From Glandiceps talaboti (lineage: Eukaryota; Hemichordata; Enteropneusta; Spengelidae), in NCBI RefSeq assembly GCF_964340395.1, contig NC_135549.1, positions 13,170,842 through 13,234,841 on the forward strand: a DNA stretch of 64,000 bases. The letters run 5' to 3'. Of this stretch, positions 13,166-55,690 are shown in pieces. The translations under genes were made by a program, and so were the position numbers. Each line of letters begins with the position of its first letter. Position 1 is the stretch's first letter. Under the pieces are notes generated by a model. The model was not told the DNA's origin, made no database searches, and saw only the letters and a program-made list of their open reading frames with translations.

Positions 13166-13762
13166 AACACAGTTATGTAAATTATTAGAAAGTGAAGCAT
13201 AACTGCCACATACCATATATCACTTGATTACTGAATTTGAAGCAGTCCCAACCAACAGACAAACCGTACAACATTGAATTTCACTTCTTTCAGAAAATGT
13301 TGTCATAACATTGAGCAACAAATTTTAGTTTGTGTCTTATCTTCATAAGCCTAAACCTGGATTGCCCCTGTATTGAGATTTACCTGTTGGTGGATTTTTG
13401 CAAATGTTATTGTATTATGTAGTTCTAGAATTTCTTAGTACTAGAATTTCTTAGTAGCGAAAAAAAACATATAATACATTGTAGTAATCTTCCTCAGTTT
13501 GTTACTAAATTACATCTTTTCAATTTCATGAAATATCTACCAGTACTCCTTGATTTTGTTCCATTTAAAACGAGGCTTGATATATTTCAGTTCAACACAT
13601 ACCTCATTATGACTGTAAAAAAAAAGGACCAACTAAGGGGAAAATACTTCACAAGTGTGTAAGATTGATTCTTTAAGTTGTTTTTTTCTCAGGGCACTTT
13701 TCCAAATTTCTCTGTGAGAAAAATGTATTTGATTGATTTGACAAAGAAGCCTACCTGAGTGC

Positions 13763-14271
13763 CAACCAAACACCATGGTGGGCATACTGGTATGTGTGTT
13801 TCAACCAACCACCATGGTGGGCATACTGGTATGTGTGTTTCAACCAACCACCATGGTGGGCATACTGGTATGTGTGTTTCAACCAACCACCATGGTGGGC
13901 ATACTGGTATGTGTGTTCCAACCAACCACCATGGTGGGCATACTGGTATGTGTGTTCTAACCAACCACCATGGTGGGCATACTGGTATGTGTGTTCTAAC
14001 CAACCACCATGGTGGGCATACTGGTATGTGTGTTCTAACCAACCACCATGGTGGGCATACTGGTATGTGTGTTCCAACCAACCACCATGGTGGGCATACT
14101 GGTATGTGTGTTCCAACCAACCACCATGGTGGGCATACTGGTTTGTGTGTTCCAACCAATGACCATGGTGGGCATACTGGTATGTGTGTTCCAACCAACC
14201 ACCATGGTGGGCATACTGGTATGTGTGTTTCAATCAACCACCATGGTGCGCATACTGGTATGTGTGTTTCA
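13763..14271. repeat. 39-bp minisatellite, 13 copies, open in several frames
   Basis: The unit is 39 bases long, including 'ggtatgtgtgttycaaccaa' and then 'ccaccatggtgggcatact'. There are 13 copies differing by a few substitutions only. Each unit contains the perfect palindrome CCACCATGGTGG. Because 39 is a multiple of three and the unit lacks stop codons in several frames of both strands, it creates several long artificial ORFs. I do not regard these as genes. It lies ~0.8 kb downstream of the SLC35B4 stop. Confidence 0.97.
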
Positions 14272-31413: not shown

Positions 31414-32783
31414 TAGCACAACTGAACTTGTTCAGTAGTGCTATAGGGATCGCCCGGCGTCTGTCTGTCTGTCTGTGTGTGTGTGTGTGTGTGTGTAAAC
31501 AACTTAAAGTCAAAAACCGCTGAACCGATTGCCACGATATTTGGTGGGTCCATTACTTTGGGTGTCTAGTTGGGAAATTGTTCAAATCAAAATGATCGCA
31601 TCACAGGTGTGTGATTTGGGTCAAAAAATGTGATTTTTGGTCAAAAAACTTAAACTCAGAAACTACTGGGCAGATTGGTGCGAAATTTGGTGGGAACATT
31701 CTTAAGGGGGTGTAAAGTAAGATTTGTTCATGACGGGATGATTCCATCAGTGATATGCAAATTAGGGCTAAAAATGTGTCTTTTTGGTTAAAAATCTATA
31801 ATTCTAAAACTACTGAGCAGATTGGGCTGCAATTTAATGGGAATGTATCTAGGGATGTATGGACGAAGAAATATTAAGCATACCATGATTCCATGAGTGA
31901 TATGCAAATTAGGTGTAAAAATGTTCATTTTTGGTCAAAAACTTATATCTCAAAAAGTACTTGGTCAATTAGTCTGAAACTTGGCGAGATGTTTCTGAAA
32001 CTGTTATTCTGCAGATTTTCTTAAAAACATTTTGACAAAATTGGCCCTAGCGACCATGACCACGCCCTTTAGCAACAACCAAATGGCAGTATATTTTGGT
32101 CAAATAACAACATCATCTGGTAAGCAAGTGAGTAAACATTCAAAAAATGTATGCAAATACCCTAGCAACCATGACCACGCCCATAGCAACAGCCAAACGG
32201 TGGTGTATTTCACAAAGATAACAACAGGGTTTAATAGATAATTGAATAAACATCCAAAAAACGTATGTAAATTTGCATAGCAACAAGACCACGCCCATAA
32301 CAACAGCCAAATAATCATGTATATTGCAAAGATAACAACAGGAATAGAAAGACAGATGAATAAACATTCAAAAAATGTATGCAAATACCCTAGTAACCAT
32401 GACCACGCCCATAGCAACAGCCAAACGGTGGTGTATTTCACAAAGATAACAACAGGGTTTAATAGACAATTGAATAAACATTCAAAAAATGTATGTAAAT
32501 TTTCCTAGCAACAAGACCACGTCCATAGCAACAGCCAAATGATCACGTATATTGCAAAGACAATATCAGGAATTCATACACAAGTGAACAAAAACATACA
32601 CAAATGTATGCAAATATATCTAACAACATGACCACGCCCATAGCAACAGCCAAATGATAGCATTTATCGTAAAGATAGCAACGTGGTTGGATAGGCAACT
32701 GGATAGTTATTCAGCAAATAAACACCTATTGTTAGCATTGACTAGCATATGGATAAACATTTTAAAAAACTAAAGTTGTGCTA
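31414..32783. mobile_element. Non-autonomous repeat element with ~115-bp tandem array, copy 1
   Basis: It begins TAGCACAACT and ends with the inverse AGTTGTGCTA. Next to the left end is a CTGT/TG microsatellite (31460-31495). Then come three diverged units of the type 'gattggtgcgaaatttggtg' plus 'gga'. Then come six tandem units of 114-115 bases, each marked by 'gaccacgcccatagcaacag' plus 'ccaaa' (starts near 32058, 32173, 32287, 32401, 32515, 32630). The same architecture recurs at 51.65-52.38 kb. Shared sequence continues ~20 bases beyond the right inverted repeat in both copies, so the true border may lie further right. No protein is encoded. Confidence 0.65.
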
Positions 32784-34610
32784 CAACGCCATTGGCGGTA
32801 TTTTTCAAAAGTAATGACACCCCCACTCTACTCCTTATTAAGGGATGGTGAAAGAACGATTACCTGGCCGTTGGTGTATTAAATCAAATTACATCATCTC
32901 GCAATAAAGACAAAATATTTGCACTGGCCATGGCAGTATACTCGTACTCTTCACTGACTGACAGAACTAGCTTTGATCACGGAATCCTAATCCGAGATAT
33001 CAACTATAAACGTGTGTGTTGTTTAATATCGAGTGTTATAGGTGAACAATGATGACGAGATGAGAGGACAATACCTCGTACGAAAGCAACGTATTTGGTT
33101 CACACAATCACCATGCTTGTCTTTATTTACACAAAACGTTCAGAAAAAAGATCTACAGTAGAACATCTATTACATTTCTATTTTCATAACAAAGATATAA
33201 GTATTACTTATTGTCAAAACATTGCGTTTTAGTCATAGCCATTGAACTCAACTAAAATGAATATCATTTGATGAAACGAAATTATGGCACAGAATATTAT
33301 GAACTGAGTTGTACATTTTGTTTGTGACATGTCATGTCATGTCGCATCAACTATTTGTCTTTCGTAAATAGATCACGGCAACGTGAACACTTCAATAAGA
33401 GCTGGAAACAATTACCGATAAACGACTTCACTTGTTATCTTGTCAACTACATGATAAATTATGAGAGAAATTTCATATAATGCTCATTACCCTTGGTACA
33501 GACCTATGACGGCACAACATCCAATACATCCCTTGACTCCCTATATATGCGTCTAGCAAGACATTATGGCATGAGAAAACTGACATATGTCAAGATGAAG
33601 ACATGGGGATGACGTCATTACCATTATACTTGAATAGAATACCCCAACCTGTACAAAAATAATACAACTCACTACTAAAGATTAGTCTCCACGAGGTATT
33701 GTTCTTCGTTGCGACAATATCTTGGCAGAACTCACAACTCAAAAATATCTATCACTGTGTACATACATTTGTATATATGTGATGACGTAGGTTTGTTTGT
33801 TTTGAACAAGAGAAATAGCAAAGTCGTCGCTTACGATATTAACAAATTTAAGCCAAAATATAGAAATACAAAAATCGCCCACGCGTTTCTGATAAAAACA
33901 TTGAGTGAACCCCCATTATTGTTATATAATTAATATATATATTATCATTATCAAAATTCTATTATATGTTCATCACGGATATTTAAAGTTAGTTTTCGTT
34001 TCTCCCCGATTTGGTGTAAAGGAAATTATACATACAATTTACAAATGTAAAAAACAGTTTTGCCGGTCATTTCTATTCTATCATGTTGGTCTACTAATGA
34101 TCTATAAAGACAACGGTGTAGATGAAGCATCGTCGTCTGTATCGAGTTTATACAATAAGTAATGTCAATGAAGTGTCACGTTAAATTTGTATCAAAATAG
34201 TTAAAATCGGATCAGAATATACATAGACAAAATATTTTGAGATACACAGGTAAAGCTTACTAAGTAAAAATGTGAACCGCCCCCTAATTCCATGTATCTA
34301 CAATACCACCTTCCTTGAGAACCGATTTGTAAAATCTGACTCCTATCTCATTCCCCGGTCCTCCCCTCCTGTAATTACTGAATGCGTCCTAAGCTTAAAT
34401 ACAAATATAAGATGAATGGTTTGCACTGCCGAGAAGAATCCGACATTGATTCAAATATTCACTTATAATATTTACAATACAAAAAGTAATTAGAGAAAGT
34501 TAGGCGCTGTAAATGTTATGGTAAATGCACATTCTTTCCTAACGATGTGCTGGGCCACCTGAGTCATTAGGGTGGGCTCTTGGACTGGACTCTTGAAGAG
34601 TGAAACTGTT
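32784..34610. other. 3' flank / probable 3' UTR of SLC46-A
   Basis: This is mostly single-copy-looking sequence without credible ORFs. On the minus strand an AATAAA hexamer (plus-strand TTTATT at 33122-33127) could end the SLC46-A transcript, giving a ~1.5-kb 3' UTR. A piece at 34385-34410 resembles, inverted, the terminal repeat of the element at 45417-46037. Confidence 0.4.
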
Positions 34611-37345
34611 TCATTGGTCTCCATCTTCTGTGTTCCTGTTTATGTCATCCAAAGGCATAAAGCGATTTTTCTTTCGACATTCTTGTATTTTGATGGAACT
34701 GAAAAATAAATGTAATAGTAAGAGAACTAAATGTTATGTTGGGTTGGGTTGGGTTGGGTTGGGTGTTGGGTGTTGGGTGTTGAATAGGACTAACGTGGTC
34801 ATGGCAGTTTGTATGTGAGAACACTATTTCCGCCAAACCAGTATCCCTCAGAATGAACCCACACACAGTTTGCCAGTATTGGCTGCATTCACCTACATAT
34901 CCATGATACATTCACCTCTACAACGATGTCTGTATTTACCTACACACCTTCATGTCACATCTTGGAGCATTGTACTATAATTCAAGAAATTCTGAGTCCT
35001 TTCCATTTACTGAAAGAGAAATAATCATGAACTCCAACCCTTCCTTTCATGGATCCATTCCAAGTCACACCATACGTCATGTCTATATAATAGTCTCAGA
35101 CAGTATTACATTTTGCATGTTACTATTTCAATTTCAGATCTAAAATATTGTTTTGATATACATATACAAGTATACTGTTGTATCTACAGACATAATACTA
35201 AGATAATATAATACCCATGAAGGTCGTATGTGGTTTTTATTGTTCGTCTAACATTCGTCCTAAAAGAGCAGCGAGGGTAACGTTTCGGATGGCTACCGCG
35301 AGACAAGTAGTAGGGGAGAGAGTAGTACGTAGCTTGAGTGTGAAGAACTTTCGACTTTCTAGCTCTCCCTGGTTTTACTGCTGGGTTATATAAATAAACT
35401 ATATCCCCTATTGTGAATTCGTGTTGCACAGCTCTCTTGTCATAGTGCTCTTTCATTCTTTCCTGTGCGACTTTCACTATCTTTAAACAGACCAGTCCGA
35501 AGGACCCTACACATTTTATCAAATGTCAGTGATTGTAACATTCACTATACTTATAAACAGCCACGGACAGTGAAAACATTTATTGAGTAATAAACACTAC
35601 ACTTTCAAGCATTTATTTGCAAAAAAAATTACAAATAAATTTATCAAACACATGCCTTCTCAAAGTGTATAAATATCATGGTTACCTTAGTAAGATGAGT
35701 GCTATCACGTAGCAGAATATATAGCAGAAGAATACCAAATTTGGCATAAAGTCAACAGTAGCAGCATAAATGGTATTGAACACAATCGGAGAGATACACT
35801 GTGTTATTCCCTGTATTGCTCCAAGAAAGGAAAATGCGACTCCTGTGAAAAAAATGATATTTGAAGACTGAGTGTATGGGGTGTTATGAGTACTACTGTT
35901 CATGGCCCTTACTAGTACTAGTATATAAACTACCGCTCGTTATTTTTACGATAATATACGATTGTCACTTTCCCAAATATAATGAGATTATTTGGAAGGA
36001 ACGTTGAACCAATGCTATAAGAAAGTCTCTGGTACATGCTAATCAAACTAGTACGGACATACATATCTTATTTTTGACAATGGCACCGACCATTTACACA
36101 TTGTCTTATGTGTATACACGATAACAAAGTGACACAGAAATCCATGCCAGAAACATACCTTGCTCACTCGATCCTACTAATTTTGATACACGGCTGCGAA
36201 TGACTGGGTAACCAAGGCTTGCTAGAGCTCCAAAGACCGGGGCTGAAAAGATAATACAAAAGATTTATATTTCGAATAACGATACGAAAGCATTTCTTTA
36301 GTAATGAACTATTTGAATTTTTGAAGTCTCCGATCCAATCGTAATCAAATATCAATATAGAAGGCAAGAGATAAGCTTAGGTATGACAATCATTCACGTT
36401 TAAGTTACTGACATGTACATTTTGACGAAATTGTTGTATTAATTTATAAATAACGTCCTCCTCTACATTAAACCAAAAAATAATCTGGTCTACTCTTCGA
36501 TCCAAAGGAACGTTTTCAATTGTCGATTATTTAAAATATGTGCGCATGAACAAAGGAAACGGGCTGTAATAGCTTTATGTAAATAATGATATGGAAAATT
36601 TGTTCAGCAATGTCGTTTATATTTTTGTAATTATCAGACACTGAGATAGAGATAATAACAAATGAGTATACAAGTGAATATGTACCAAAATACCAAAATT
36701 CACTTCAATTCAATTCAAATAATCCCTTTCGATTTATGAAAAAACAGTTGATTGTATTACTTCATTAATAAAGTCATAATTTATTCTTACCTATAAGCAT
36801 GGAGACATAATTCTGTGCAAACGCCAAGACAACAAGATTTGCTACAGCCGACAGGTAAGCCAGTGCAGCAATACCAATGTCACCCAAACAAAACGACAGA
36901 AATTTTCCTCCGATCAGTAAACCTAGGGAAAAGAAACGGACACTACATTGAACTCGCAAATAGAAAGAAAATAGTTATTAGTTACAACTGTTTTGTGTGC
37001 TTCCTGACTCGTGTTACAATGTAAAATGTTAAACCCCCTGTAACTATTCTAGTATAATTTTGATTTTAGTGTTGATACAAAATGTAAATGTCTAGGATCT
37101 ATTATATTCTGACGTTGTTAGCTAAGTTGATAGTCATAATGGGTTTCCTTGGTATACTTATCGTAAAATGGTATCATCGAATCATTTACACAATGACTAA
37201 ATACCAAGTTTGAAATAGAAACTGATAGATATGTATGCTTTACCCTCTGCCTACAACTTATCTTTCAACATGCAGGAAACTTTATATATACATTACCTCC
37301 CCTTGACCAAACAAACAAAAACGTGTTGTGTTGTCTGTCTGTCTA

Positions 37346-37388
<43 letters not shown>

Positions 37389-37425
37389 GACTGACTGACT
37401 GACTGATTGACTGACTGACTGACAG

Positions 37426-37456
<31 letters not shown>

Positions 37457-38834
37457 CTGTGTCTGTGTCTGTGTCTGTGTCTGTGATAGTGTGTGTGTAC
37501 GGGTTTCTTCTCATTGTTGTTGCAATACAGTTTTGTCATATACACTATAATACAGTGATGTAAGCTTATATTGTCTTGATTGTAGTGAGCTTACATTCTA
37601 CGGTCACACAAACGTAACGATTCCTTTCGAGTAGTACATTCAACAAAGCCAGAAATGTGAAGGCCGAGAGCAACTCTTAAAATTTGAACTTTGGAATTCA
37701 AACTTTTAAAAAACTTACGACTGAATTTTGAAGAACTCTCTTGGTCTTCGTGCAAAACTTACCTAGACCATTCGATGTAAATGCAATAGTTTGGAAATAT
37801 CCGATGTATACAGAGTCGAAACAAAACGGGGGAACCATAACATATAGTGAAAGTAAATTGAACAAGGAAGTGTCAACCAATGATGCCACGAAGATCACCA
37901 GGGTTGAAACCACCAACTGGTACAGGTCATCACCACGTTTGCTAGAAAACATTCGAGTCATGCCTTTGTACTGGTCACGAATAATTCGCGATGTGTCAAC
38001 TTTTTCACGGACGCCAGTTTCTTTGACCCAAACACAAATATACAAAACCACAAAAACCGACATTCCAAATGTGAACCAGATCGGAGGTACAAAGCCGTTT
38101 GTCCTTATCCAGTATCCGACAGCAAGCTGCGAAATGCAGCCTGAAATATATGCAAAGAATTCCAGAATCACCAAACGTACAGTGCGTTGTTCTTTTGTTG
38201 TGATGTCAGCGATATATGCATTGCTGATGGCTATGACGGAGAAGTAATTCCCCGACAATCCGAGAGCAATTTCACCGATGAAGAAATACTCAAAACGAAG
38301 CTTGAGAACAATAATAGCTAGAGTGACTGCAACATACGCTACACATCCCATCGACGGTATCAACAAAGCCATCTTTCTCCCTCCACCATTCTCGCTGAAA
38401 AAGCCAATAAACGTCGTAGCAAACAACGAAAGAATGGAGGACACAGAGCTGAGAGATAATAACCAATAGGCAGAAATTGATTGTGCTTTTTGTCCTAATA
38501 TATAATTTGGATCACTTAGGTTAACACTGCAACCACCGTACACAGTAGAGCCGTTTTCCAACCACTTTATCCACCCGGTGCCTGTGTAGTTGAGTGAAAC
38601 AGCAACTGTGTGATCTATGTATTGTATACGAATGGTTGAGATGATCATATAGACGAAGATCGTGAAAAAAACGACTGGTTCGACGGTGATTGTACGACGA
38701 AGTCGAATCAACATCGTCGACAGGCGCGACTTTGGGTTTGGTGTATCTCCAGTTGGTATCAGCTTTACATGACTTTCAACAGGTTCACAACTGTCTTGAG
38801 AAGTAGGCATTTCGGAGCGTTTCACGACAGGCAT
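34611..38834 (-). CDS. SLC46-family MFS transporter (SLC46-A), 5 coding exons
   Basis: Minus-strand exons in order: 37763-38834, 36791-36922, 36159-36242, 35686-35842, 34611-34698. Phases join to 510 aa with GT-AG introns. It is a major-facilitator protein. There is a cytosolic N-terminus (1-~50) and a first helix at ~51-70. A large first loop carries N-glycosylation sites at Asn82, Asn94 and Asn105. A motif-A-like turn FFSENGGGRK lies at 145-154, and the SLC46-type YIADITTKEQRT at 207-218. Twelve helices are expected. SLC46 members move folate with protons (A1), and cyclic dinucleotides, muropeptides or other solutes (A2/A3). The substrate of this one cannot be read from sequence. Its paralogue SLC46-B lies immediately upstream on the same strand with the same exon plan. 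The last 29 residues are a short charged tail. A G-rich repeat and a Gypsy relic lie in intron 4. Confidence 0.92.
34741..34783. repeat. (GGGTT)n / GGGTGTT tract, quadruplex-prone
   Basis: Seven or more GGG runs are separated by 2-4 bases (TTGGG pentamers, then TGTTGGG units). They lie 43-85 bases from the acceptor of SLC46-A exon 5 at 34698. On the transcribed (minus) sense the tract is CCCAA-rich. Confidence 0.85.
35184..35522 (-). mobile_element. Ty3/Gypsy-type pol (integrase C-terminal) relic
   Basis: A 112-codon open frame contains AQERMKEHYDKRAVQHEF followed by TIGDIVYLYNPAVKPGRARK. This is the conserved integrase C-terminal stretch of Gypsy retrotransposons (AQxRxKxYYDKR...GDxVWLYxPxxKxGRSxK). 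The usual following 'WxGPYxI' segment is absent, so the frame has decayed or is truncated. It lies inside SLC46-A intron 4 on the same strand as the gene. No LTRs were recognised. Confidence 0.7.
37333..37500. repeat. Compound microsatellite (CTGT)n-(ACTG)n-(GT)n
   Basis: Tetranucleotide CTGT units (37333-37389) pass into ACTG units and then GT and GTCT units, in SLC46-A intron 1. The long ORFs read across it are artefacts. Confidence 0.95.
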
Positions 38835-39109
38835 TATATATGGAAGAAGTCTGTCAAGACAGGAGTCTGTGGTCAGAAATTATCAACGACATCCATTTAC
38901 ACTTTCACTGTTCTGGTTTGAAGGTTGCTTGTAGTCAGCTGATGTGGATGTTATATAACATATTATACAAACACTGATTATATCACATAAAGAAAAAATG
39001 TTTGTGTGACGGTTTTGTTACTAGTATGAACCATGAAAGTATATATGCAAAGTAATTGTAAAGTCGTAGGTATGCCGTTGGAACAAAATATGACATACAT
39101 TAAACAAAC

Positions 39110-39115
39110 AAACAA

Positions 39116-39146
<31 letters not shown>

Positions 39147-39320
39147 TACATACATACATACATACATACATACATACATACATACATACATACATACATA
39201 CATACATACATACATACATGTATGTATGCATGCTTGCATGTATACATGCATGCACGCACGCACACACACAAACACACACACAAACAAACAAACACACACA
39301 TACATACACACACACACGGA
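39110..39320. repeat. Compound microsatellite (AC)n-(CATA)n-(AC)n
   Basis: AC repeats lead into about twenty CATA units (39141-39220), then TGTA/TGCA and further AC repeats. It lies between the SLC46-A start and the transposon at 39972. The remainder of 38835-39971 shows no gene. Confidence 0.95.
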
Positions 39321-40534
39321 CAGACAAACACCCCCTACACATACACGAGAGTTAATATGCGCATGCGAACGTATAAATATACGATCCATGTCCATTTTTC
39401 AAAGTGGTTCAAAGTATGTATATTATACATTGCGGGTACAGATTTGCCAAATGATTACGTCATCCGAAGTAAATATAATCGATTTTTTGAATACCTGAAG
39501 CATCGCTGTTAGAGTATTCCGTCAGAAAATTTAACGTCTCATTTTAGGAGTACACGTGTAAAACTAATTAAAAACATTTAGAGTGAATATGACAGTGTCA
39601 CAGGATCGATGAAAAGCTGGTGATTGCAAGAAAAAAGAAGTCGGAAAAAGCTGTACATGTTAATTTACGTCGGTTTAGTTTAAAGATGATATAAAGGAGT
39701 CTTCAGTAATTACAAGAAAGGAGGCCCAAGGGACATCAGCACACTAAAATACAATTTACTCGACCAAGAACTATGATTTAACGTATAACGACTATAGTTC
39801 AGTTGTCGTAATATATGGGTTAGGATTGTTATATTTGATTTATATATGTAATTCTATGCATCCGTGTCTCTTGGAATTAAATGCTCTTTCATTTAACTGT
39901 GGCAGAGACCCTCCGCCCTGGTTGAGGCTCTATGATTATAGCAAGATAGTGTGAAAATATTGGAGTTCAGGGATAGGGAGGCCCACAGCCTGTTGGGAAA
40001 AAATTGCTGTTTTGAAGATTTTGGAACCTTCATAAATCGTAAAGCAATCAAATATAACTTGTTATTTTCAATTATTTAATAAATATGAGTAGTTGTGTTT
40101 AAGAAAAAGTGGTATAAAGGCATTTGTGGCCGTCCTGATCGTATCTTTTGAAGTTTGAAATTGAAAGAAATTGCAATCGTTCGCGCGTTTTGTGTGTGTG
40201 GTTGGTTGGTTCAATGGTCGCGAGAGACAGCCCCCAACGGCGACTTTTGGAGAGTCTTTAAATACGCCGTTTTCCATTGGTTCTTTAACCCCCTTTGTGC
40301 GAAGATAACGAATAGAAATCGACGAATCAGAAGGCTTGTTTGAAAAGAATTCGACTCCAAGTTTCGTTATTGGCCTGTTCTTATGAGCGACGAGGGATTT
40401 TAACTGACGAGCCTTGCTGCTGTAAGTATGGCTTTTTTTCACAATTAATAGTTTCGACGTTTTGAAAAATTTGACAAATTAACCCCGATGTTTTGATTAT
40501 GTATTTATCACTCTATGTTTCTGCCAAATTTCAG

Positions 40535-40657
40535 GGTGATCTGATGAAAAATGTTTTCGCGCATCGAATTTCTCGATGCCACGGTGACGGAGCCAGCCAA
40601 AACATGGCGGAGGTTGCCAAGTATGTCCCTGCTTCAGCGTGGCTTCAATCCCCTGAC
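40535..40657 (+). CDS. First coding exon of the transposon gene (candidate)
   Basis: It is bounded by an acceptor (CCAAATTTCAG, ending 40534) and a donor (CCTGAC|GTAAGT, at 40658). Start codons are at 40544 and, with a better context, at 40604 (ATGGCGGAGGTTGCC). A preceding exon would end at 40421 (GCTGCT|GTAAGT). Spliced directly to the acceptor at 41650, the frame closes after about 20 codons. Either another exon intervenes or the copy is mutated. Confidence 0.35.
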
Positions 40658-41650
40658 GTAAGTATTGTGTACTCTACTTCTTTTGAATTTTTGGCTTCAT
40701 TTTCCTTCATTTTATACTAATGACTACCTTTTTCATCGATCGATGCCAAGTTATCCGACAAATGATAGCGAGCACAACACCAATTTTACACGGGAAATTC
40801 ACTTCCGGGTTTTTCGAACCAGCTGATTTCTTTACATGGTCGGTAATGACAGTTGTGTATTTTTGTCACATTTTCGCCCCGTTTTTGTCGGCGTACAAGA
40901 TATATCGTCAGAATAATTATTGAATAATGCTCTCTACACTCAATTTCCCAGGTAATGCATATTACTATTTCAAGTTTCAACAAACCATACATACAATGTA
41001 TGAACAAACTATACATATATAGTTTGTTGCATATTTTGTGTAAGTTTTTATTTATTATTGTGGTGATACTGGTAATGGAACTTTTGTGCCATGTCTGCTG
41101 TGCTGTGCTTTGCGCTCCTATGCTTTACTTTGCTTTACATACTAAATAATAAACAATGCAGTAACCTAAGCTTTTAGAAGTAATATGTTTGTCTAGAATT
41201 AAATGCATGTCTAGTGTTTAAAATGTATGTTGAATAACCAATACTCACTCTTGGTACTGCCTTAACTGAACTTAATAATTTGCACAAATTTATTGTATGT
41301 TTTATATGTGGAATGCACTATGATAATAACTGACTTGTTTTGATGGGTTTTGCTCTGCACACAATTTGAAGTTCAAAGCTTTCTTGATGGTCAAAACTTT
41401 GTTTCGTAGTGATTAATCATAAATTAGCAAATGAAAATAATTGATGTATCTTTCATGATGTCTCTGTTTCAGGTATATTTCTAATCGAAAATCTACAAAT
41501 CAGAAAGTGGAAAATATGAGTCGTATTTCACATTGCAACTGCTTAGATTAGACGTTAATTGTTTTTAAGAAATTGTGATTTTAAATTCAAACATATCAAC
41601 AGAAAGTTATTCTAATTGTTTTGTTTTTCTTTTGTTTTTTGCCATTGTAG

Positions 41651-44401
41651 ATCTTGTTTAGTGGAACAGTGTACCAATGGGTCACACAAGGCATTGACCA
41701 ACAAGGAATTCCTTGAACTACACTTCACAAGTCATAAGTTTGGGTCGTCGTTTGGTTGCAGTCCTTCCAGGCTCCTTCTCACCTGGTTGCATAGGTTTTG
41801 CGCAATTGACACAGACAAGAGGACAGAGACACAACTTCGTATGAAGTGTAAAAAAGTGGAGACTAACTACAACAACCTCATCAGAAAGATTCAGAAAAAC
41901 AGACATAGAAATAGTGCATCAGCTTTTCATACTAAATTACACTCGTACCTTGAGCAGTCCTTCACATGGAATTCTCCTGTTCTAGCTAACCAGTCTGATA
42001 CTGTAGATGTTTTACACGAGTCTGAACTGATAGCAGTACAAGGTGGATCATACTTACCCCCTACTCTGCCAACATATGATGATGTGGTCGGAATGGATCG
42101 TATGGATGCTCCACTGCCTCCGACTTATGATGAAGTAATGCTACCAAGTACTAGTACTTACCACGATGTCTCCAATACTAGTCATCTGTACTTGCGAAGT
42201 GGAACTAAATACTCAATGTCACCGAATAAAGCAAAACTAAGAGAAGATAAAAGAAAAGCTGATGCAGAAGTTGCAAGGGTGAAAAGAAAGCTGCAGGTAG
42301 TCACTGCTGAATGAAGGAAATACCATGACATGATTGGTGTAAGAATGAGAAATATTCTACAAGAAAAAGATGATGCTCTAGAGACAGTTAAAAACATGAA
42401 GGAAGTTACCAAGCAGGCAGTCCAAGAATGTGTTTCAATGGAAAACATGCAAAAGAAATGGGAACACTATCTATAGAAAGGGACAACTACAAAGAAGAAG
42501 CTGCAAAATGGAAAGATGCAACAATGTCACTAATAGACGAAACAATTCACTGTGTAACAGACAATCGAAGAGTGAAGAGATGTGAAAGACAGCTTAAAGA
42601 AGTCGAAAATGAAAAGAAGAAGTTAAAGGTACAGCTCTCACAAAAAGAGAAAGAAACAACAACTCTGAAGCAACGGATCAAAGAAGCAGAAGAGAACATC
42701 GAAATGGATCGAGAAGCAGCTACAGTTTTCTTTGATGGTATTGTGAATGAGTTGAAGGAGCAACTGAAGGAGCGCGTGGAGAAAGAGAAAGAGCTAGAGG
42801 AAAGAATACAATGCCTAACATCCTTGGAAACCAAAGAGAAAGGTGGTCTCTATAAGACTGAAATACGCCTTGTGTACTATCATCTTTTAACTTTAGGTGT
42901 CAGTGCCAACCAGGTAGAATCAGTAATAAGAACGGTACTAGCACATCTTTCCCCGGTCGATGACAAAGCTATACAACTACCAAAGAGGTCAACTGCTCAG
43001 CGCATGAAAACTGAAGCTGGACAGCTGGCCACATTAAGAGGACTGGTAGAGTGGTCACAAAGAGAAGAAAAAGATGTGGCCTACCTGACTGACAAAACCA
43101 CCAAGGGCCAACTTGAATGGCTTACACACAAAGTTGTCTTATCTCCTAGTGGTGAAGAGAGAGCTACAGGGTCCCGTACTGTGTTTACTCTGGGTCTTAG
43201 ACCCATCGCTGGGGGAACAGCTGCAGATGCAGCAGAAGACCTTCAAAATTTACTTTGTGAACTTCAGAGACTTGGACAAGAGATGAATTTAGAACATGTA
43301 GAAGAAACATATAATGTCATAAACTTCAAAACTCGCATGTCTGATAGAGCGGCCACTGAAGGAAAAATGACAAAGCTACTGTGTGAAATGAAGACAAGAG
43401 AACTAGAACGACTATTACCAACATGGAATGAAATGACACAAGAGGAAAAGAATGAAAAAATTAGAATACATGCATTTACATGTGGAGCACATAAGCTCAC
43501 TAACATGGCTGAAGCTATGAACAAAGCTGCTGTAAAATACTTGTATGAAAATGATGAAATTGCCAGTAATAACAGAAGAATGATAGGTGCTAAAAAGCAC
43601 ATATATGAGTGTGATAAACTGCTTTGTGAAAATTCAAAAAAGGAATATGCAAAAGGGAAGGATTTTAAAGGATTTTGTTTGTCAAGGGACATACATGTTA
43701 AATCTGGATCTCAACTTTTTAAACCTATAGTGGGATCAAGATACTTGATATACTTCCACAATAGCCTCCCCACCTATGTGGGGAGACAATTCATTCAACT
43801 GTTTCTTGTCGATCACTGTGATTCTAAAGGTCACTGGAACAAACTTGAGGCAAGTGTGTATGATGGATACAATGACCTTCGTATCACAGCAGAGGAAAGA
43901 GCTTATGCAGTACTGTATTATGAAGTATGTCTACCTTTGATGGTTAAAACAAAATCCGTAAATCAGATATTGGAGATGAATGAAGTATATGAAATGACTG
44001 TCAATAAACTGAAAGAGTGGAGTGATGATCCTGAGGGTCTGTTTGAAGGGAGTGAGAAACTGTGGCCAGACTGTAGAAGAAATGACGCACACAAACAATA
44101 CATATTAGAAGTTAGACGACCAGATGAAACAGATGACATGGTAAGGGAGATTTTGAAAGTGTGCTGTGCTGCTGGAGCTGAGAAATTAACACAACGTGCT
44201 CGTGAACATTTACCTGGGGGAGAGTTTGTTGAACCAACCGAACAACAGATTCATGCTGCTGGTCTTCTTATGGGGGCAACGAATGATCAGTGTGAAAGTG
44301 ATTTTGGTCTTCTAGACCAAATGGGTAAACTTCTAGACCAAATGGGTAAAGTAACTGATATTTTAGACCCTTTTAATTCTTATGGCTGGGGTCATTTTTA
44401 A
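41651..44401 (+). pseudogene. Broken transposase-like gene, family unassigned
   Basis: One protein is split over two frames. Segment 1 (41651-42314) is basic, with two PPxY-like repeats (LPTYDDV and PPTYDEV), and ends at an in-frame TGA at 42312. The same frame then continues coiled-coil-like sequence to a TAG at 42472-42474. Segment 2 (42428-44401, 657 codons from its ATG) continues the coiled coil (to ~residue 135) into a globular domain. That domain has YLTDKTT (Asp222), RMSDRAAT (Asp306), a Cys-Gly-x-His pair (FTCGAHKL, 352-355) and NDQCESDFG (Glu623). The spacing suggests a DDE-like nuclease, but this is inference. I recall unnamed invertebrate proteins with a 'TDRA.TE...FCGLH.L.N.A' pattern, which fits a widespread uncharacterised family. 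At 44306-44350 a 21-base tandem duplication repeats LLDQMGK. The stop and frameshift indicate an inactive copy. Confidence 0.7.
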
Positions 44402-44915
44402 TTAATTTGATAAAATCCACTTTTTGGTAATAATACATTTTACTTTGAAACCATTTGAGTGGTAATATTTTAATTTTGCTCTCTCCCAGTGTTATTGTCT
44501 GTCATTTTATCATGAAAATAATTGCTTGGGGTCATTTTTTAAATTAATATTTGACCCTAAAATTGACAACTTGTCATGTTCTGCACATTTCAGATTTTTG
44601 CAGAAATTGTGCAAATCTTCTTTTTCAGATCAGTGTTTCATTCATTTATCAATGTGTGAGAGCTTTGAAATTTTTGCTGTTGTTTGTATGTAGTACAATC
44701 ATTGCAAAAATGAAGGGACCATGTCAGTAACCTTCAATATATTTTGATTAGGTCAACTCAGATATGGCATTTTGTCTTTTGTTTCACACTAGCCATGGGC
44801 CTCCCTATCAGGAGAGAAGCTGAATATCGAACCAACGAGCTTATTGTTGGTACATGGTCTACGATTTCGAACAGCTAAACACGACGGCGACATCTCCTGC
44901 ATCTTGCGATCTTTT

Positions 44916-47900
44916 TCATTCCCCAATCAAAGGATCATCCCTCGCCAATACTGGGTAGTGGTCTTCATCCTCCTCTTTGTCAACGTTGTCATCTAATGGT
45001 ACAAAGCGATTTTTCTTCCGACATTCTCGTATTTTGATGGAACTGAAAATTAAAATATGTGATGGAGATTACTTGTCAAATTTTCTGGGTTTGGGAACAT
45101 ATCACGGTGGAGATGAGGATGTGTAAGCAGCTGTCATTGTATATTCTATTTTACATGCTACTTTTAGAATTGGTTTTATCCCTAGAAACATATGCAACAG
45201 ACGATTACTCAAAACATTGTATCAATACTGTGGCGGGGGCCAATGACATCTCCCAGGAATCTGACGAATTCTGATTATAATAGGTAAAAACGATCGCTTA
45301 TCCTTTTATTATCAAACCACATCTTTAGATTTGTCGTGAATACAAGGAAATAATAGATGCACTCATATCAGTAAATACCTACACTGATGAATCCAATCAA
45401 CTTACCAGTTAGAAATAGGGAGCATTCAGTATTTACAAGGGGGAGGGCCGGAGGAAATCACACATGGTCTGTTAAGAAAAACATGACCCCCCCCCCCCAT
45501 TCATTCATGAACGAGCCTACTACCAAATTATCAATTAATGTTTAGCTTTTTACAATTATTAATACAATTTTGATGATAATTTACAATATAGAGTGACTTT
45601 AATATCGAACCATGGCTGTTCGGACATCAAATATGATTTTCTCACTGCTACTCTACACTTTATCATGTATGTACCTTCAAACCAATCGGTGATCATATTT
45701 TAACAACAACGTTCACGGACAGTGAGTGATAAGGTGAGATGGTACACTCAACAAAATGCATCGTTTTATAAACAATTTCTTACAATATATGTATTTTTAT
45801 TTTTGTATTTAGACATGTAAAGTACTTGTTGAGTGCTCATCTCACGTTTACATCTCAAAACACACAAAACAAATTGACAATAGTTGAATATTCATTTTGG
45901 TCACAAAACTACGTATTGTAAAATGTGACCCTCCCCCAAATATTGTAATGCAAAATATGACCCTCCCCTAAGAACAGGTTTGTAAAATGTGACCCACCCC
46001 CGATTCCCCCCCCCCTTGTAAATACTGAAGGCTCCCTTAGTAAAATGTAAACTCCATTATTTTCCGTAATTTGTAAACTGTTTTTTTCATAGTATTAAAA
46101 TGTTAAAATTGAAATTTTCTCTTCTTGATTTTGTAAATCAACAAAAACTTTTGTTTCCTGTAATTTGTGCCGTTTACCCCCTTTGCCCACCCTCCATGGA
46201 TGACAGTAAACTATGTGTTCAATGGAATATTTCTGTCAGTGTTAATTTGATGGTCTGAGTGTTAACACTGATTGTGTTAATCTACATAACCACAGTCCCA
46301 GAAGAACTGCCATACATCTGTAGATAGGGACGAGGTCTTTAGAATATCTAGTATTTGACGAGTTCAGCTACTATGTGGAGTTTGGAAAGTTTAACGGGAA
46401 AGCTTATCAAAATACACGCCTTCTCAAGATTGTACAAAATACATTGTAAACAAATACAACATTGTTTTTACCATATCAAGGCGAGTACTACCACGTAGCA
46501 GAATATATAGCAGAAGAATACCAAATTCGGCATAAAATCAACAGTAGCAGCATAAATGGTATTGAACACAATCGGAGAGATACACTGTGCTATCCCCTGC
46601 ATTGCTTCGACGAAGGAAAATGCCACACCTGTAAACGAAAAGAACTAAAATACTAACATTCCCCACTATTTTTCTTCGCTCAGCCATGGAAAATACAAGT
46701 GACCTAAGGGGGCCTTGCGATTCATAGTGACATAACTCTTAGATCATGAGTATTTGCATTGCATTCTCGCGGAGGTGGTGAGGCGGAGGAAGGGGAGGAG
46801 GCATGAGGAGGAGGCCGAGGAGGAGAAAGAATAGGAGGGAGAGGAGGAGGAAGAGGAGGAAGAAGAAGAGGAGGAGGAGGAGAAAGAATAGGAGGAGGAG
46901 GAGGAGGAGGAGAAAGAATAGGAGGAGAAGGAGGAGGAAGAGGAGGAGGAGGAGGAGAAAGAGAAAGAGAAAGAGAACCAACCTGTGTGAAAGCAGGACT
47001 ACGCTTTGTCGTGATGTACAATGACTAGGGTATTAATTCCATGTTTGTTGGGTTTGAAAGAAAATGGCAAAAATCATATACATTCTATGATGTACAAGAA
47101 ATAGCTAGGGGCTACAAGTCTTAGGAAGGATAGCTGCGTCACATCGATACAAATAATCACATATGCATGGTTGACTTTACTAGTACATTTTTTGTAAAAG
47201 GCCGAGTAGTGAGAACATTATCGCTCATCACCAGTGGTGGCTTACGGCACTACACGACATGGTGTATCTTGAAACTAAAGACTTTGATAACGATTTTCTA
47301 TTGCTAGAGTCAAACATTTCCAATGGGTTGTGTTTCTCTTTGATTGGCATGCTAACGTCATCCAAAGCTACGTTCACCGAAGCAAACTTTCGTAAAGTCA
47401 AAATAAAAACAACCAATGACACACGTACCTTGTTCATTTTCCCCAACCAATTTTGATATTCGACTTTTGATCATTGGAGCGTTAAGGCTTCCTAGACCTC
47501 CAACGGCTTGGGCTGTAAAAATGACCCCAAAAAATCAGTTTTCAGTAACTCTTCGGTATTATTATTTTTTAAACTCTGCTTGTAGAGTTGGATGTTTCAT
47601 TGATTCCTGTGCTCGAGTGGGAGCGAAATGCATGGATATTAATAAACAATGCGTAATATTGTTTTCCTTCTATCTAGAAATGAAATGGTCTGTAAGATAC
47701 GACGTGGCTCTATTATCAGAAGTCAGTTCAAAAGAGAACCCAGAAGAAGGCTGAACGACATTTACCTTTCATTCTGAGTGTCTTTAAGAGTGTCTTTAAA
47801 CAAATGAATACTTGAGAGGGTGTAAGCCATACAAACTAAGCAATATGTGAGCAATTTATGAGTGAAATTCGTACGTACTTATTATTCAACGAAATAATAA

Positions 47901-50900
47901 AAAAGGCAAAAAAAACCCACCAACTTCACAGAGGTAAAGAGGCTTGAGATAATTTGGGTTGGGTGAAGAGTTATAGAAGTCAGAACAGAAATATCACATA
48001 ACACTTAAAATTTGAGAGTCCAAATGAATTATGTAGTATTATCTTCATTATAATATATAATAATCCAATGTAAAAAAAATCCACAAGTGAGAGGGGGAAA
48101 CGGACAGTATTTCAGTGGCAAAACTTATATTTTCAGCCGTTGATGTGTGGAGAAAGGAAGTGTATTCGCAATGCGGGCGTCATTTGAGCGTTATTGAAGT
48201 TAGAAGAAAAATTCCATTGGTGTTTTTGTTCGGGCGAATAATGACGAATATCCACTGAATGATGGGGGGGGGGGGCAGTGGAGAGTATGAAAAAATGAGG
48301 AGACTGAGGAAAAGAAACACGTACGCAGATATTTTAGGGAGTGGGCAGTGAACATGTGGATCATCAGAGGACGGTTTGTCGTTAAATATTCCAGTGGGGG
48401 GACACATATGAAGAGCGTTCACTTTCCTCTTTAATCGTCAATATAACTCAATTAAAAAAAACAGGGCAAATAGTTGTAGCAACACTGAACACTTTATATA
48501 TCATTGTTTAAAAGTTTTCATCCACATGAAGATCCATCCCTGTTTTCGCCTTTGCAATATACACTGCAATTTTACAGTTCTTATGGACAGTATCTAAAAT
48601 GTTATCTTTTTTCGCTCTCTCGGAATGACTTCAGATACATCTGTAATGGACTCGTTGGCTGCACCTGAAACAGACCAATCGTCAAAGTGTTTCAGGGCTT
48701 ATCAAGTTTGTAATCTAAACACCCAAGGTATACCATATGTACTGATTGAATACTCTTAGAATAAGTGTACATTGAGTGTCACCTATACGTACCTATCAGT
48801 ATTAGGGTCGGACTCTGTGCAAATGCTGTTGTCATGAGAGATGCTATGTACGACAGAAAACTTAGCATAGCAATACTAACATCACCCATGCAGAATGATA
48901 ACAACTTGCCTCCAATCAGTAGACCTGGTAAAAAAACGAAAAGACCTACAAATTACGAATTGAAACAAATCTTCGTAGAAAACTCAGGCTTGAAATCACA
49001 CAGATGCGTACAACAGTCAGTTGCACGTAATTGTGTCGAATTTGCCATGTGACACCATTCTGCAGTGTGAACAATAGTCTGATTACAAATCTCGGACTCA
49101 CCATTTCTATCCCGCTAAAAGATATACATGTCCGTGTAATGATGATTTGATACGCATATCGTCATGAAAGACATCGATATTGTTATTTTCAATAATCTTG
49201 GTGAGATATGCAGCAACTTATGATCTCACAGTCACCATTTCTTACAGAACAATTTACTTGTTAGTATTGTTCGCTACCATTACTCAAAGCCATTTGTGAT
49301 TTAACAACTTTTTGTCTACACCAGTGTCGCTGTATTTCTACTTCTTAGTATTTGGTCACTCAAATTTGTCAATATCATTGGTTATGTACATGTACCTGAT
49401 CTCTAATACAATGAGTAACACTGAAGTAAATCAATTTCTCTATATGCTACACTCATTTATAGGATTCATATCAAGTGCAAAAGTATACTATTTCGGGGTA
49501 TTTACAAGCCTAGCAAGTGGCATTTCTAATGGATCAATTAACAAATGAAACACTTATACTTTTACATTTGATATGAATGTTATAAATGATTGTGGTATAT
49601 ACAGAAAATGTACAACACCTCCACTGTTGCATAAAACCGTTCCAACCAAAAGGTAACAACATCACAGTGACATTAATTTAGATACATGTACATAGCCAAC
49701 ATTTATTGCATTGACAAACAGTTGTATTTTGAACTCCGAGATCTATGATTGTTTCATTGGTTGGCTTAACATCAATTAACTTGGATATGTGATATTGGTG
49801 TCAAAAAGTTACTACTTCAACTTGTATATGTTGCATTTGTATACAAGCTATATATATAAAATCTACATTGAAATTGCAATGTCTATGCCATTGTACCACA
49901 GGCACTCGAATCAATGTGTATGATTTAAAAAAAGATATGTATGTAAATTTACATACATATTTTTTTTAAATCATACACATTGGTTCGAGTGCCTGTCCTC
50001 TTAGGGGTTGGCCGATGTTTGTCCTCTTAGGGGTTGGCCGATGTTTGAGGGCGCCCAGTCACGGCGTACCTTACAGACTACTGTAGTAATATGATAAGAC
50101 GGTTTTAAACCAAAGGTCAATGACCTCTTGTTGCGAGAAGGCGAGATAATAATTGACCAATAGCTGTGACAAAGATAGATTTGTATAAGAATGTTCAAAT
50201 AGTGTATTTTTGGCAAACATTGACAGACAAGCAAAGCATCTTTCTATGTCTATCTTTAAAAAGAATATGTTTTGGAAATATTGGTGGAATATTGTATGGA
50301 AATATGTCGTAGATACAACAGTGAGTCTAAAATGAGTCTCACTTTAATAGCTCAATTTATATCAAAAGGTATATTGAACAAACATGCTATTTGCATTTCG
50401 TTTGGTGTTCGGAGATTGTTTTATTGATATGCCAGTTACATTGTAAAATCTTTGCAAATACAAGTCTGTTCGGGTGAAAATACCTACCTAATGCGTTCGA
50501 TACGTATATCACAGCTAGGAAATATCCAATGAACACAGAGTCTAAACAAAACGGAGGTGCTATAACATAAAGCAAAAGGAGGGTTGGTAGAGAAGTGTAC
50601 ACGAGCGCTGTCATTAACAGGGCCAGGCATAATATGACCAACTGATAAAATTCATCACCATACTTGCTAGAAAACAATCGAATGATTTCCTTGTACTGGT
50701 TACGAAAGACACTTTTTATGTCATACAGTTGTCGCAGGCGAGTCTCTTTTACCCAAATAGAAATAAACAAAACTAGGAACGCCGAGATAGCAGAGGCAAA
50801 CCAGATAGGACTCGCAAAACCGTGCTCCCTTAACCAATACCCAACGCCAACTTGCGAAGTGCATCCTGCTAAAAAGGCAAAGACTTCGAGGATCACCAGA

Positions 50901-51553
50901 CGGGCGGTACGCTGTTCCTTGGTCGTTATGTCAGCGATTACGGCATAGCTAATCGCTACGGTGGCGAAGTAATTCCCAGTCAGTCCACGAATAACTTCAC
51001 TAATGAAGAAATATTCCAAGGGTAGCTCTAGAGTGACCACTAGAAGTATGCTTACAACATACAGTACATATCCCGTCGTAGATATTAACATCGGTATTTT
51101 TCTCCCTCCACCATTCTCGCTGAAAGAGCCAATAAATGATGTGGAAAACAAGGAAAGAATGGAGGACACCAAATCGAGGGATAACAACCAGTAGGACGAA
51201 CTAGCCTGAACTTTTTGTCCCAATATATAATTTGGATCACTCTTATTCACGGTACAATCCCCATAGGCTGAACCATTTGCCTGGCCTTGACCAGGTCCGC
51301 TGTAGTTGAAGGACACTGAAACACTGTGGGTAACAAACTGTACACGAACGGTGCTTATGATTGTAACAACTAACAGTGCGAAAAAAATAACTGGTTCAAC
51401 GGTGACTGTCTGACGAAGTCGGCTCAACGGTGTGCACTGGTCTGTACTCGTATCAACAGCTGGTACATGTATTGAATCAACATCATTAGCGACAGATATG
51501 TAACTATTTGAAGAAACTGCTTTTTCCAAGCGCTTACATTTAGTCACTGGCAT
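44916..51553 (-). CDS. SLC46-family MFS transporter (SLC46-B), 5 coding exons
   Basis: Minus-strand exons in order: 50488-51553, 48793-48924, 47429-47512, 46472-46628, 44916-45042. They join in phase to 521 aa. Exons 2-4 have exactly the lengths of those in SLC46-A (132, 84, 157). I chose the ATG at 51553 (MPVTK), which aligns with SLC46-A MPVVK. An in-frame ATG at 51595 would add 14 residues. The protein shares NKSDPNYILGQK, SLFSTSFIGSFSENGGGRK (motif-A-like), AVIADITTKEQRTARLVILE and the C-terminal CRKKNRF. A glycosylatable NYS/NGS/NKS cluster lies in the first loop. The acidic tail is 13 residues longer than in SLC46-A and ends in an acidic-dileucine-like stretch (DDPLIGE). The substrate is unknown; the family moves folates, cyclic dinucleotides or muropeptides. 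The 3' UTR abuts a DNA transposon, and introns carry a polypurine tract and several mobile-element pieces. Confidence 0.92.
45417..46037. mobile_element. 621-bp MITE-like element with 31-bp TIRs
   Basis: The left end AGGGAGCATTCAGTATTTAC followed by AAGGGGGAGGG is mirrored at the right end with 2 mismatches in 31 bases. Poly-C/G tracts lie at both ends (45488-45499 and 46006-46016). The interior is AT-rich with no ORF. It lies in SLC46-B intron 4. A diverged inverted end of the same family seems present at 34385-34410. Confidence 0.75.
46670..46735. repeat. Element end related to 20648-20700
   Basis: 'cagccatggaaaatacaagt' followed by 'gacctaagggggccttg' matches, with a few changes, the segment in RAB7 intron 1. 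This is a second copy of that dispersed terminus, in SLC46-B intron 3. Confidence 0.6.
46770..46978. repeat. ~200-bp polypurine (GGA/GAA) tract
   Basis: It is almost exclusively A and G on the plus strand (GGAGGAAGAGG-type units, interrupted by occasional 'aata'). On the transcribed strand of SLC46-B it is polypyrimidine, inside intron 3. It could form triplex DNA. The proline- and arginine-rich ORFs here are artefacts. Confidence 0.95.
49898..49996. repeat. ~50-bp-arm palindrome without loop
   Basis: ACAGGCACTCGAATCAATGT at the left is mirrored by its near-exact inverse ending GAGTGCCTGT at the right. The arms meet at GTAAATTTAC. There is about one mismatch and one single-base indel over the full arm. 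It lies in SLC46-B intron 1. Confidence 0.9.
49993..50046. repeat. 26-bp tandem duplication beside the palindrome
   Basis: 'tgtcctcttaggggttggcc' plus 'gatgtt' occurs twice in a row, followed by the dispersed-repeat segment shared with 13.1 kb. Confidence 0.9.
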
Positions 51554-51607
51554 CCTGTTAAAGTGCTGTTCACAATGAAGACTAAAACCCATCAAACAAC
51601 CTTGACT

Positions 51608-51745
51608 TAATCTGATTAAAATCTGATGTTGTGAAAGCAGCTAGATCATTTATTAGCACATTTAACTGATAAGGTTCAGTAGTGCTATAGGCATGGTGAG
51701 GTGTCTGTCCGTCCGTCTGTCTGTATATGTGTGTGTGTGTGTGTG

Positions 51746-51796
<51 letters not shown>

Positions 51797-52551
51797 GTGT
51801 GTATGTGTGTCTGTGTGTGTGTGCGTGTGTGTGTGTTATTCTGCACATTTAGTTCAAAACATTTTTGACACAATTAGCCCTAGCAACCATGACCACGCCC
51901 TTAGCAACAACTAAATGCTAAAATAACATCATCTGATAGGCAAGTCAGTAAACATTGAAAAAATGTATGCAAATATCGCTAGCAACCACAACTACGCCAA
52001 TAGCAACAGCCAAACAATGGTGTATTTCACAAAGATAACAACAGGGATTCTTAGACAAGTGAACAAAATATTCAAAAATTGTATGCAAATATACCTAGCA
52101 ACAAGAATATGTCCATAGCAACAGCAATGTGATGATGGTATTGCAAAGATGACATTAGGGATTCATAGACAAGTGAATGAAGATTCAAAAAATGTATGCA
52201 AATATGTCTAGCAACATGACCACGCCCATAGCAACAGCCAAATGATCGCATATATTGCAAAGATAACAACAGGGCTGAATAGACAACTGGATAATCATTC
52301 AGCAAATGAACACCTTCACCTAGCATGGATCAGCATGTGGATAAACATTTATAAAAACTGTACTGTTGTGCTACAACGCTATTGGTGTTATTTCTACCTC
52401 TATTTCCATCGTGTTGTGACATTTGTTTTGTTCCGGGTGATCGTCGTGGGATGGCGGCGATCATCCCGAACAAAACAAGTGTCACAACACGATGGAAATA
52501 CAGGTAAATACAGACATCTAGCCGCTTTCACATCAGATTTTAATTAGATTA
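51608..52551. mobile_element. Inverted-repeat-bounded composite containing tandem-array repeat, copy 2
   Basis: The outer ends are ~37-bp inverted repeats: 'taatctgattaaaatctgat' and on to 'gctagat' at 51608-51646, mirrored at 52516-52551. Inside is a second copy of the family at 31.4 kb: 'ttcagtagtgctatag', a CTGT/TG microsatellite (51712-51838), four 'accacgcccatagcaacagcc' units (~51891, 51989, 52105, 52218) and the right end 'gttgtgctacaacgctattg'. Then comes a strong hairpin. This looks like one element nested in another, just upstream of SLC46-B. Confidence 0.6.
52401..52500. repeat. Hairpin with 46-bp arms and 8-bp loop
   Basis: The arm 52401-52446 (TATTTCCATCGTGTTGTGAC onwards) is the reverse complement of 52455-52500 with 4 mismatches in 46. 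The centre is GC-rich (ATGGCGGCGATC). The AT/GC make-up differs from the surrounding repeat, so it may be an independent small insertion. Confidence 0.9.
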
Positions 52552-53739: not shown

Positions 53740-54247
53740 ATTACAGTGGATTTCCCCAGACCGAGTCAAAGTTATTAAATGAACTATCAAGATCAGTGAG
53801 CCTGATCACAAGGTTTCATATTGAGATAGACACCAAAAAGATGACATACACACATCATTTACACAGTGGGCCCTTTATTTAGTTAATGATATACGAACAG
53901 TAACAGCATGCACACTACTACACAAGGTATAATCTTTGAAGTTCAAACAAAATCCATGGTCAGCAGCCAATGAAAGTTCAACTTGGTAGAATACTCTATT
54001 CCCATAGTACATGTGTACCAAAAAATACAGTCAACGTAATGAAGCAGTTTTCCTGCATATTTTTTTCTTCAATTTTAGGACTTTCCATAGAGACTCTGTA
54101 TGTGAGTATGTGTTTAAACTTTAACAGATTCTATCAACTTTCACTGGCTGCTGAAATGGAATTTGTTTGAACTTCAACAGATCAAGCTCACTGATCTTGA
54201 CAATTCATTTAATAGCTTTGACTCAGTCTGGGGAACTCCACTGTAAT
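53740..54247. mobile_element. Foldback element with ~67-bp and ~41-bp paired inverted segments
   Basis: Segment A 53740-53807 (ATTACAGTGGATTTCCCCAG...) is inverted at 54180-54247. Segment B 53937-53978 (TGAAGTTCAAACAAAATCCA...) is inverted at 54136-54176. On the right B and A are contiguous. On the left they are separated by ~130 bases of unrelated sequence, suggesting a later insertion at 53808-53936. Confidence 0.8.
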
Positions 54248-54603: not shown

Positions 54604-55690
54604 TCTTGTAAGCCCCCTCTGGAAGGGGTGTTATAACAATGGATTCCGCCCGTCTGTCTGTACGTTATACACCAGGCCATTTCCCTGATATGCAATATTT
54701 AACTTCATTGAAACTTGATACAAAGGTGACATATCATATGGGACATATACACGCCACTGTTCCAACGCATGCAAAGTTAACCGAATGACGGCTATACTTG
54801 TGGTCAAAAATCCCGATTTACTACATAACTCAAAGAATATAATACACAGAGCCTCGTATCGCCATATTATCAAGTGCAAATTATCTTTTAAGACCTTGAC
54901 ATTGCCCTTCAAGGTCAATTATCACAACCAAGGTAATTATTGCACATTCCTATGTGGCCAATTTCTGTTAAATCTCGTGTTCGGGTAATACAGAACAAGG
55001 GAAATATACAAGTGTTACTTTTGGTGCCCATATAACTCTTTACTGAATGGCAGTCATATTGCTGGAATAAAATCATGATTTATTGCATGACTCAAAAATT
55101 GTAATACTGTACATAAAGACCCTATTCATGTGTCTACCTCAATATTATTAACTGCAAGCTTTCTTTTAAGATTTTGACTGTTGACCTTGACCCTCAGGGT
55201 TATAATATCGAAATCAACATATTTCTTGCAATGCCAATTGCACAAACTTTGTGGTATTAACTGTGGGCATTCCTTTCCTTATCTTGGGCACATTTGATAC
55301 AGAAGAAGGGAAATACACATATACATTAATTTTGGTGCCCATGTTACTTTGTAGTTAATGGCAGCCATATTTGGTGAACATGTACTATTTGTACGATTAC
55401 ACAGGAACCATAAGACATAGGTTGAGTGTCTGCTCTTAAATAATACTATGTGATTTTTCTGCTAGTGACGTTACATTTGACCTCCTCCTTGCCCTTCAGG
55501 AACAGTGACTGAATTTCAGCCACATTTGGTGTACCGAAATAACATTTACTGAATAACACAGAGGCTGTAACGCAAAGAGTCTCCGGTGAAGTGTCCATTC
55601 CTATATTATATGGGACAAACTTTTTTTTTTCGACGCCGACCAAAGTCCATCATGGCCTTGAGGGTTAATAACAAACGTCAGACCATTTCT
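54604..55690. repeat. Dispersed repeat (partner at 9.14-10.1 kb)
   Basis: It carries the same ordered landmarks as the first copy: 'cgtctgtctg', 'gacatatcatatgggacata', 'gatttactacataactcaaa', 'gaccttgacatt' and 'ttgcacat'. It runs through about three diverged monomers. Short minus-strand ORFs inside have no coding character. Confidence 0.6.

Follow-up and report, generated by a model that had tools for sequence, protein, structure and literature searches.

The 64,000-nt window analysed here (positions 13,170,842 to 13,234,841 of contig NC_135549.1 of the hemichordate Glandiceps talaboti) contains a putative DNA transposon unit of 4838 bp (39972-44809; all coordinates below are those of the window), which is bounded by perfect 14-bp terminal inverted repeats (TIRs), abutted on both sides by the trinucleotide AGG, and encloses a broken gene for a transposase-like protein. 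A first-pass annotation, made from the sequence letters alone, had reported the TIRs and the AGG trinucleotides, and both were found as described. The 14-bp ends are perfect, a search of the window that allowed two mismatches gave no further match, similarity between the two ends of the unit is limited to these 14 bp, and the outer flanks read TTCAGG on the left and AGGAGA on the right.

39969-39971, no strand: AGG, left copy of a putative 3-bp target-site duplication, abutting the left TIR (an 8-bp alternative, discussed below, uses 39967-39973)
39972-39985, plus strand: left TIR, GATAGGGAGGCCCA, perfect over 14 bp
44796-44809, minus strand: right TIR, TGGGCCTCCCTATC, the exact complement of the left TIR
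44810-44812, no strand: AGG, right copy of the putative 3-bp target-site duplication, abutting the right TIR (the 8-bp alternative uses 44808-44815)

Inverted 14-mer pairs lying 0.5-12 kb apart were counted throughout the window after removal of low-complexity and non-maximal pairs, and 100 Markov-1 sequences passed through the same filters served as the null model. From 688 pairs in the window, 668 were discarded for low complexity and 8 as non-maximal, leaving 12, compared with a mean of 6.09 per Markov-1 sequence. By itself, a 14-bp inverted repeat is unremarkable; its combination with an abutting 3-bp direct repeat is not. Such a repeat flanks one of the 12 pairs, the 39972/44796 pair that forms the TIRs, with 0.16 expected per Markov-1 sequence. 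The same pair contains 9 G/C in 14 positions within a window of 36% G/C, compared with 3-5 G/C in the other 11 pairs, and among the Markov-1 pairs with a 3-bp repeat none reached at least 9 G/C in the 100 sequences. Moreover, it is the only one of the 12 that brackets the gene (one end within 36001-41650, the other within 44402-50000).

An interrupted reading frame

The longest stop-to-stop open reading frame (ORF) of the window (42392-44401, 669 codons) lies within the unit and is preceded by a second ORF (41616-42314) in a different frame. The gene comprises the following features:

40544-40657, plus strand: possible 5' exon, starting with an ATG and ending before a GTAAGT donor (GT at 40658); read by eye, weak, with codon scores that are not positive
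41651-42311, plus strand: upstream part of the transposase-like frame, following an AG at 41649-41650 (the translation from 41649, P0002, has 221 amino acids)
42312-42314, plus strand: in-frame TGA, a putative nonsense lesion with coding-like codon use in the same frame on either side
42315-42473, plus strand: continuation of the same frame, coiled-coil-like, ending at a TAG (42474-42476); the coding signal switches frame near 42430
42392-44401, plus strand: open frame P0001, 669 amino acids, spanning the entire putative catalytic domain and the larger share of the coiled coil, with a coding signal that begins at about 42430
44309-44350, plus strand: 21-bp tandem duplication (LLDQMGK twice), directly after the putative catalytic Glu

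Frame-specific codon scores, for which the long ORF was the training set and which are therefore not independent of it, favour the frame of the upstream ORF from about 41980, also past the TGA at 42312, and that of the long ORF from about 42430. The sequence flanking the TGA reads as one lysine/glutamate-rich, coiled-coil-like run, and the frameshift is placed near 42430-42476. One long frame carrying one nonsense lesion and one frameshift appears to be the simplest account.

The first-pass annotation had instead proposed a spliced gene and placed the start of its product at 42428. Splicing in place of lesions is disfavoured because codon use stays in frame over the TGA and afterwards changes frame, and, since the frame seems to enter from upstream through the TGA and the frameshift, 42428 is probably not the protein start. 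No frame-keeping splice join was found among the upstream GTAAGT donors (GT at 40422, 40658 and 41040); the join of 40657 to 41651 breaks the frame, and the acceptor AG at 41649-41650 was read by eye, with a simple scan giving 40810 and 41973 only.

Decay in the form of a premature TGA, a frameshift and a short duplication such as that of 21 bp is usual in old transposon copies. Because of the TGA and the frameshift, the present copy would be unable to encode the full-length protein and could be at most a passive substrate.

Putative catalytic residues and the transposon reading

The 669-residue product contains two aspartates, a C/DxxH signature and a glutamate, in this order:

43091-43093, plus strand: first putative catalytic Asp, D234 (LTDKTT)
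43343-43345, plus strand: second putative catalytic Asp, D318 (MSDRAA)
43481-43492, plus strand: C/DxxH signature CGAH, C364-H367 (signature as given in PMC10045372, PMC9587614 and PMC3706591)
44294-44296, plus strand: putative catalytic Glu, E635 (NDQCESDFG)

These are the residues that had first been numbered D222, D306, C352GAH355 and E623 by counting from 42428, and each lies where it had been placed. D234 and D318 are 84 residues apart, D318 precedes CGxH by 46 and E635 by 317 residues, and 34 residues of open frame remain after E635. Published accounts give the order D, D, C/DxxH, E for hAT, P, Kolobok, MuDR and Dada (PMC10045372, PMC9587614, PMC3706591). Together with the spacing, this order is the best reason to call the P0001 product a DDE transposase, with its catalysis presumed from the motifs.

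We consider that 39972-44809 is probably an autonomous cut-and-paste transposon in decayed form, belonging to the C/DxxH group of DDE transposons, and we do not assign it to a superfamily. The evidence for this consists of the TIRs, the flanking repeat, the enclosed gene, the order and spacing of the motifs and the two lesions in the frame. That the unit is a DNA transposon with its own protein as transposase, as the first-pass annotation had suggested, appears well supported by this anatomy. For the intact element we infer a fold, a catalytic activity, a mobility and a duplication length of the following kind: the coiled coil may mediate multimerisation of the transposase, which would bind the GATAGGGAGGCCCA ends; D234, D318 and E635, placed in an RNase-H-like core, would excise the element; and reinsertion by a short staggered cut would leave a short target duplication, in the simplest case the 3-bp AGG.

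Several observations weigh against this reading. Two single-sequence AlphaFold models, run as a check for an RNase-H fold, had predicted local distance difference test scores (pLDDT) of 38.7 and 44.9, both too poor to judge the fold. A core-fragment model showed, at very low confidence, a strand-strand-helix-strand-helix order that would suit an RNase-H core, but it places D234 inside a helix and ends its final strand 11 residues before D318, and a comparison with the PDB gave helix matches, which were uninformative for the fold. Before about 41980 the frame has little or no positive codon score, with negative values at 41620-41710. No second copy was found in the window by protein or by DNA (P0002 gave two fragments at E 0.95), and the search for an empty site that had been proposed earlier, run on the window only, yielded no readable one: past the last exon of the paralogous transporter gene described below, the alignment score was 24, compared with a shuffle mean of 25.9. 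Finally, the proteins of the element matched no transposase in Pfam, in NCBIfam or among PDB sequences.

The weak matches in these libraries are taken as chance or coiled-coil matches. In Pfam, P0001 had seven, the best of them to the coiled-coil family CALCOCO1 (E 0.0012), and P0002 had five, all below the cut-offs; four catalytic fragments together gave a single weak match (ATG31, E 0.18). NCBIfam returned nothing for the catalytic part and one weak match for P0002 (E 0.056), and PDB sequences returned three for P0001, led by amphiphysin (E 0.046), and one for the catalytic part (E 1.3). The viral, phage, plasmid and prokaryotic collections searched contain few animal sequences, so that misses there say little. 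P0001 gave 53 candidate stretches in viral contigs and 319 in genome contigs, and motif alignments gave 104, 37 and 104 stretches in viral contigs and 383 in genome contigs, none of which was confirmed. In viral contigs, the catalytic part alone had no match and P0002 a single stretch, likewise unconfirmed, and tblastn found no match for P0001 in plasmids or for the 520-residue catalytic part in phages. Among the papers considered, mostly judged by title and the start of the abstract, none was matched to the protein or the TIRs, and we do not claim absence from print. In its motif pattern, the protein may resemble a set of uncharacterised proteins of animals (SDRA, CGLH and SERDF-like motifs), a likeness that the first-pass annotation had also suggested.

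Target duplication and alternative assignments

The simplest duplication length, and the one that we favour on the basis of this one insertion, is the 3-bp AGG; the chance of AGG/AGG beside a given 14-bp TIR is about 0.02 (0.0196). An alternative parse, recognised after the fact, uses 12-bp ends, TAGGGAGGCCCA, whose flanks, TCAGGGA (left) and TCAGGAGA (right), would form an 8-bp duplication minus one left base. Its chance is 0.0014 given the 14-bp TIR and about 0.03 (0.000565/0.0196) once AGG matches. We favour 3 bp because the 8-bp parse requires an indel as well as TIRs that are extended by coincidence. The length bears on classification: hAT elements combine 8-bp duplications with ends of 10-25 bp (PMC3942097), and the target duplications reported for C/DxxH groups measure 4-10 bp (PMC3706591).

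Under the 8-bp parse, the unit would be a divergent element of the hAT superfamily, or of a close sister of it, which we regard as unlikely. Elements of the hAT superfamily are 2.5-5 kb long, with 10-25-bp TIRs and 8-bp target-site duplications (PMC3942097); the 4838-bp length, the TIR length and the D/D/CxxH/E order of our element agree with this assignment, and the flanks of the 12-bp ends can be aligned as a repeat of 8 bp if one indel is allowed. However, only four of the eight flank bases agree without a gap, the parse was found afterwards, and the outermost GA/TC complementarity of the 14-bp repeats would have to be coincidence. Moreover, neither hATC nor BED of Pfam was matched at E up to 10, a search made with one broken, divergent sequence, and only 34 residues of open frame follow E635. 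The element differs from hAT in lacking these profile matches and in having a simplest duplication of 3 bp. In favour of hAT, the E-x-x-F in CESDF and the TAGGG terminus are similar to the hAT motifs ERxFS and YARNG.

A host pseudogene or a domesticated transposase, flanked by 14-bp repeats through coincidence, is less probable still. The unit is present as a single copy in the window, about six such 14-bp pairs per window arise by chance, and the frame is broken, all of which would suit a coincidence, but the TIR pair is alone in bracketing the gene, is G/C-rich for this window and has the abutting repeat.

It is very improbable that the unit is an AcademX-like transposon of the Academ superfamily. 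AcademX duplications are indeed 3 or 4 bp (PMC10045372), and curated bivalve Academ elements average 5565 bp (PMC10294476). However, in published descriptions one or the other of a helicase and a nuclease is encoded by each of the two Academ lineages (PMC10045372); neither main ORF has a Pfam match to such a domain, and no other ORF of the element exceeds 148 amino acids. Academ is also missing from the C/DxxH lists of PMC10045372 and PMC9587614, the comparison being with published descriptions.

P, Kolobok, MuDR and Dada share with the element the C/DxxH signature between the second D and the E, P and MuDR being compared by motif alone. Kolobok was rejected, as its TTAA target duplication (PMC9587614) is absent from the flanks. 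Dada, which has 6-7-bp duplications and inserts in small RNA genes (PMC3706591), was rejected as well, the insertion lying beside a transporter gene in a window without Rfam match at the gathering threshold. Where the C/DxxH groups have 4-10-bp duplications, this element, which adjoins a protein-coding gene, shows either AGG or an 8-mer with one imperfection; a 3-bp duplication would fall outside the published range (PMC3706591).

An undescribed family, as the first-pass annotation had proposed, is possible: the libraries covered here gave no match to a named transposase family, and the C/DxxH motif links the element to an established DDE group. Within the reading as a C/DxxH transposon, it is possible but rather doubtful that the element represents an unnamed animal superfamily, characterised by a C/DxxH DDE transposase, a long coiled coil and 3-bp duplications. 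If so, the uncharacterised animal proteins mentioned above would become transposases, and if relatives keep the ends and the 3-bp duplications, that protein family would gain a function and the C/DxxH group would acquire a branch whose target spacing is unusual. A hAT-like element would be a divergent transposon of an ordinary kind. In both cases, the defined ends of the element provide an exact bait for a genome search.

Insertion site and other repeats

The minus strand carries two tandem MFS-transporter-like ORFs (37698-38879 and 50387-51640), with Pfam MFS_1 matches at E 8.2e-7 (below the cut-off) and E 5.3e-9 (above the cut-off), respectively. Over 68 bp (34643-34710 and 44987-45054), the apparent last exons of the two genes share 90% identity, and further common stretches lie at 35682-35857 and 46468-46643. 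The second gene has its apparent stop codon at 44916-44918, and the element ends 106 bp past it; therefore, the insertion appears to lie in the 3' untranslated region or just downstream, and the transporter coding sequence would be spared. The tandem transporter duplicate, at first promising as an empty site, was discarded, similarity stopping within the last exon. Tandem repeat arrays of about 114-bp units are found near both transporter copies (32045-32800 and 51834-52393).

Elsewhere in the window, a unit resembling a miniature inverted-repeat transposable element (53740-54247) has 68-bp arms that are 91% complementary and 372 bp apart, with the ends AT-TA-CAGTGGA...TCCACTG-TA-AT; it is probably a non-autonomous element of the Tc1/mariner type with a TA duplication. 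Three palindromes of 78-112 bp (49898-49996, 52395-52506 and 8617-8694), 84-96% self-complementary, may be fold-back elements. A dispersed repeat family is represented at 9183-10119 and 54678-55380, with copies about 65-72% alike, and a 39-bp minisatellite (13756-14271), whose copies are about 93-96% alike, reads open in several frames of both strands.

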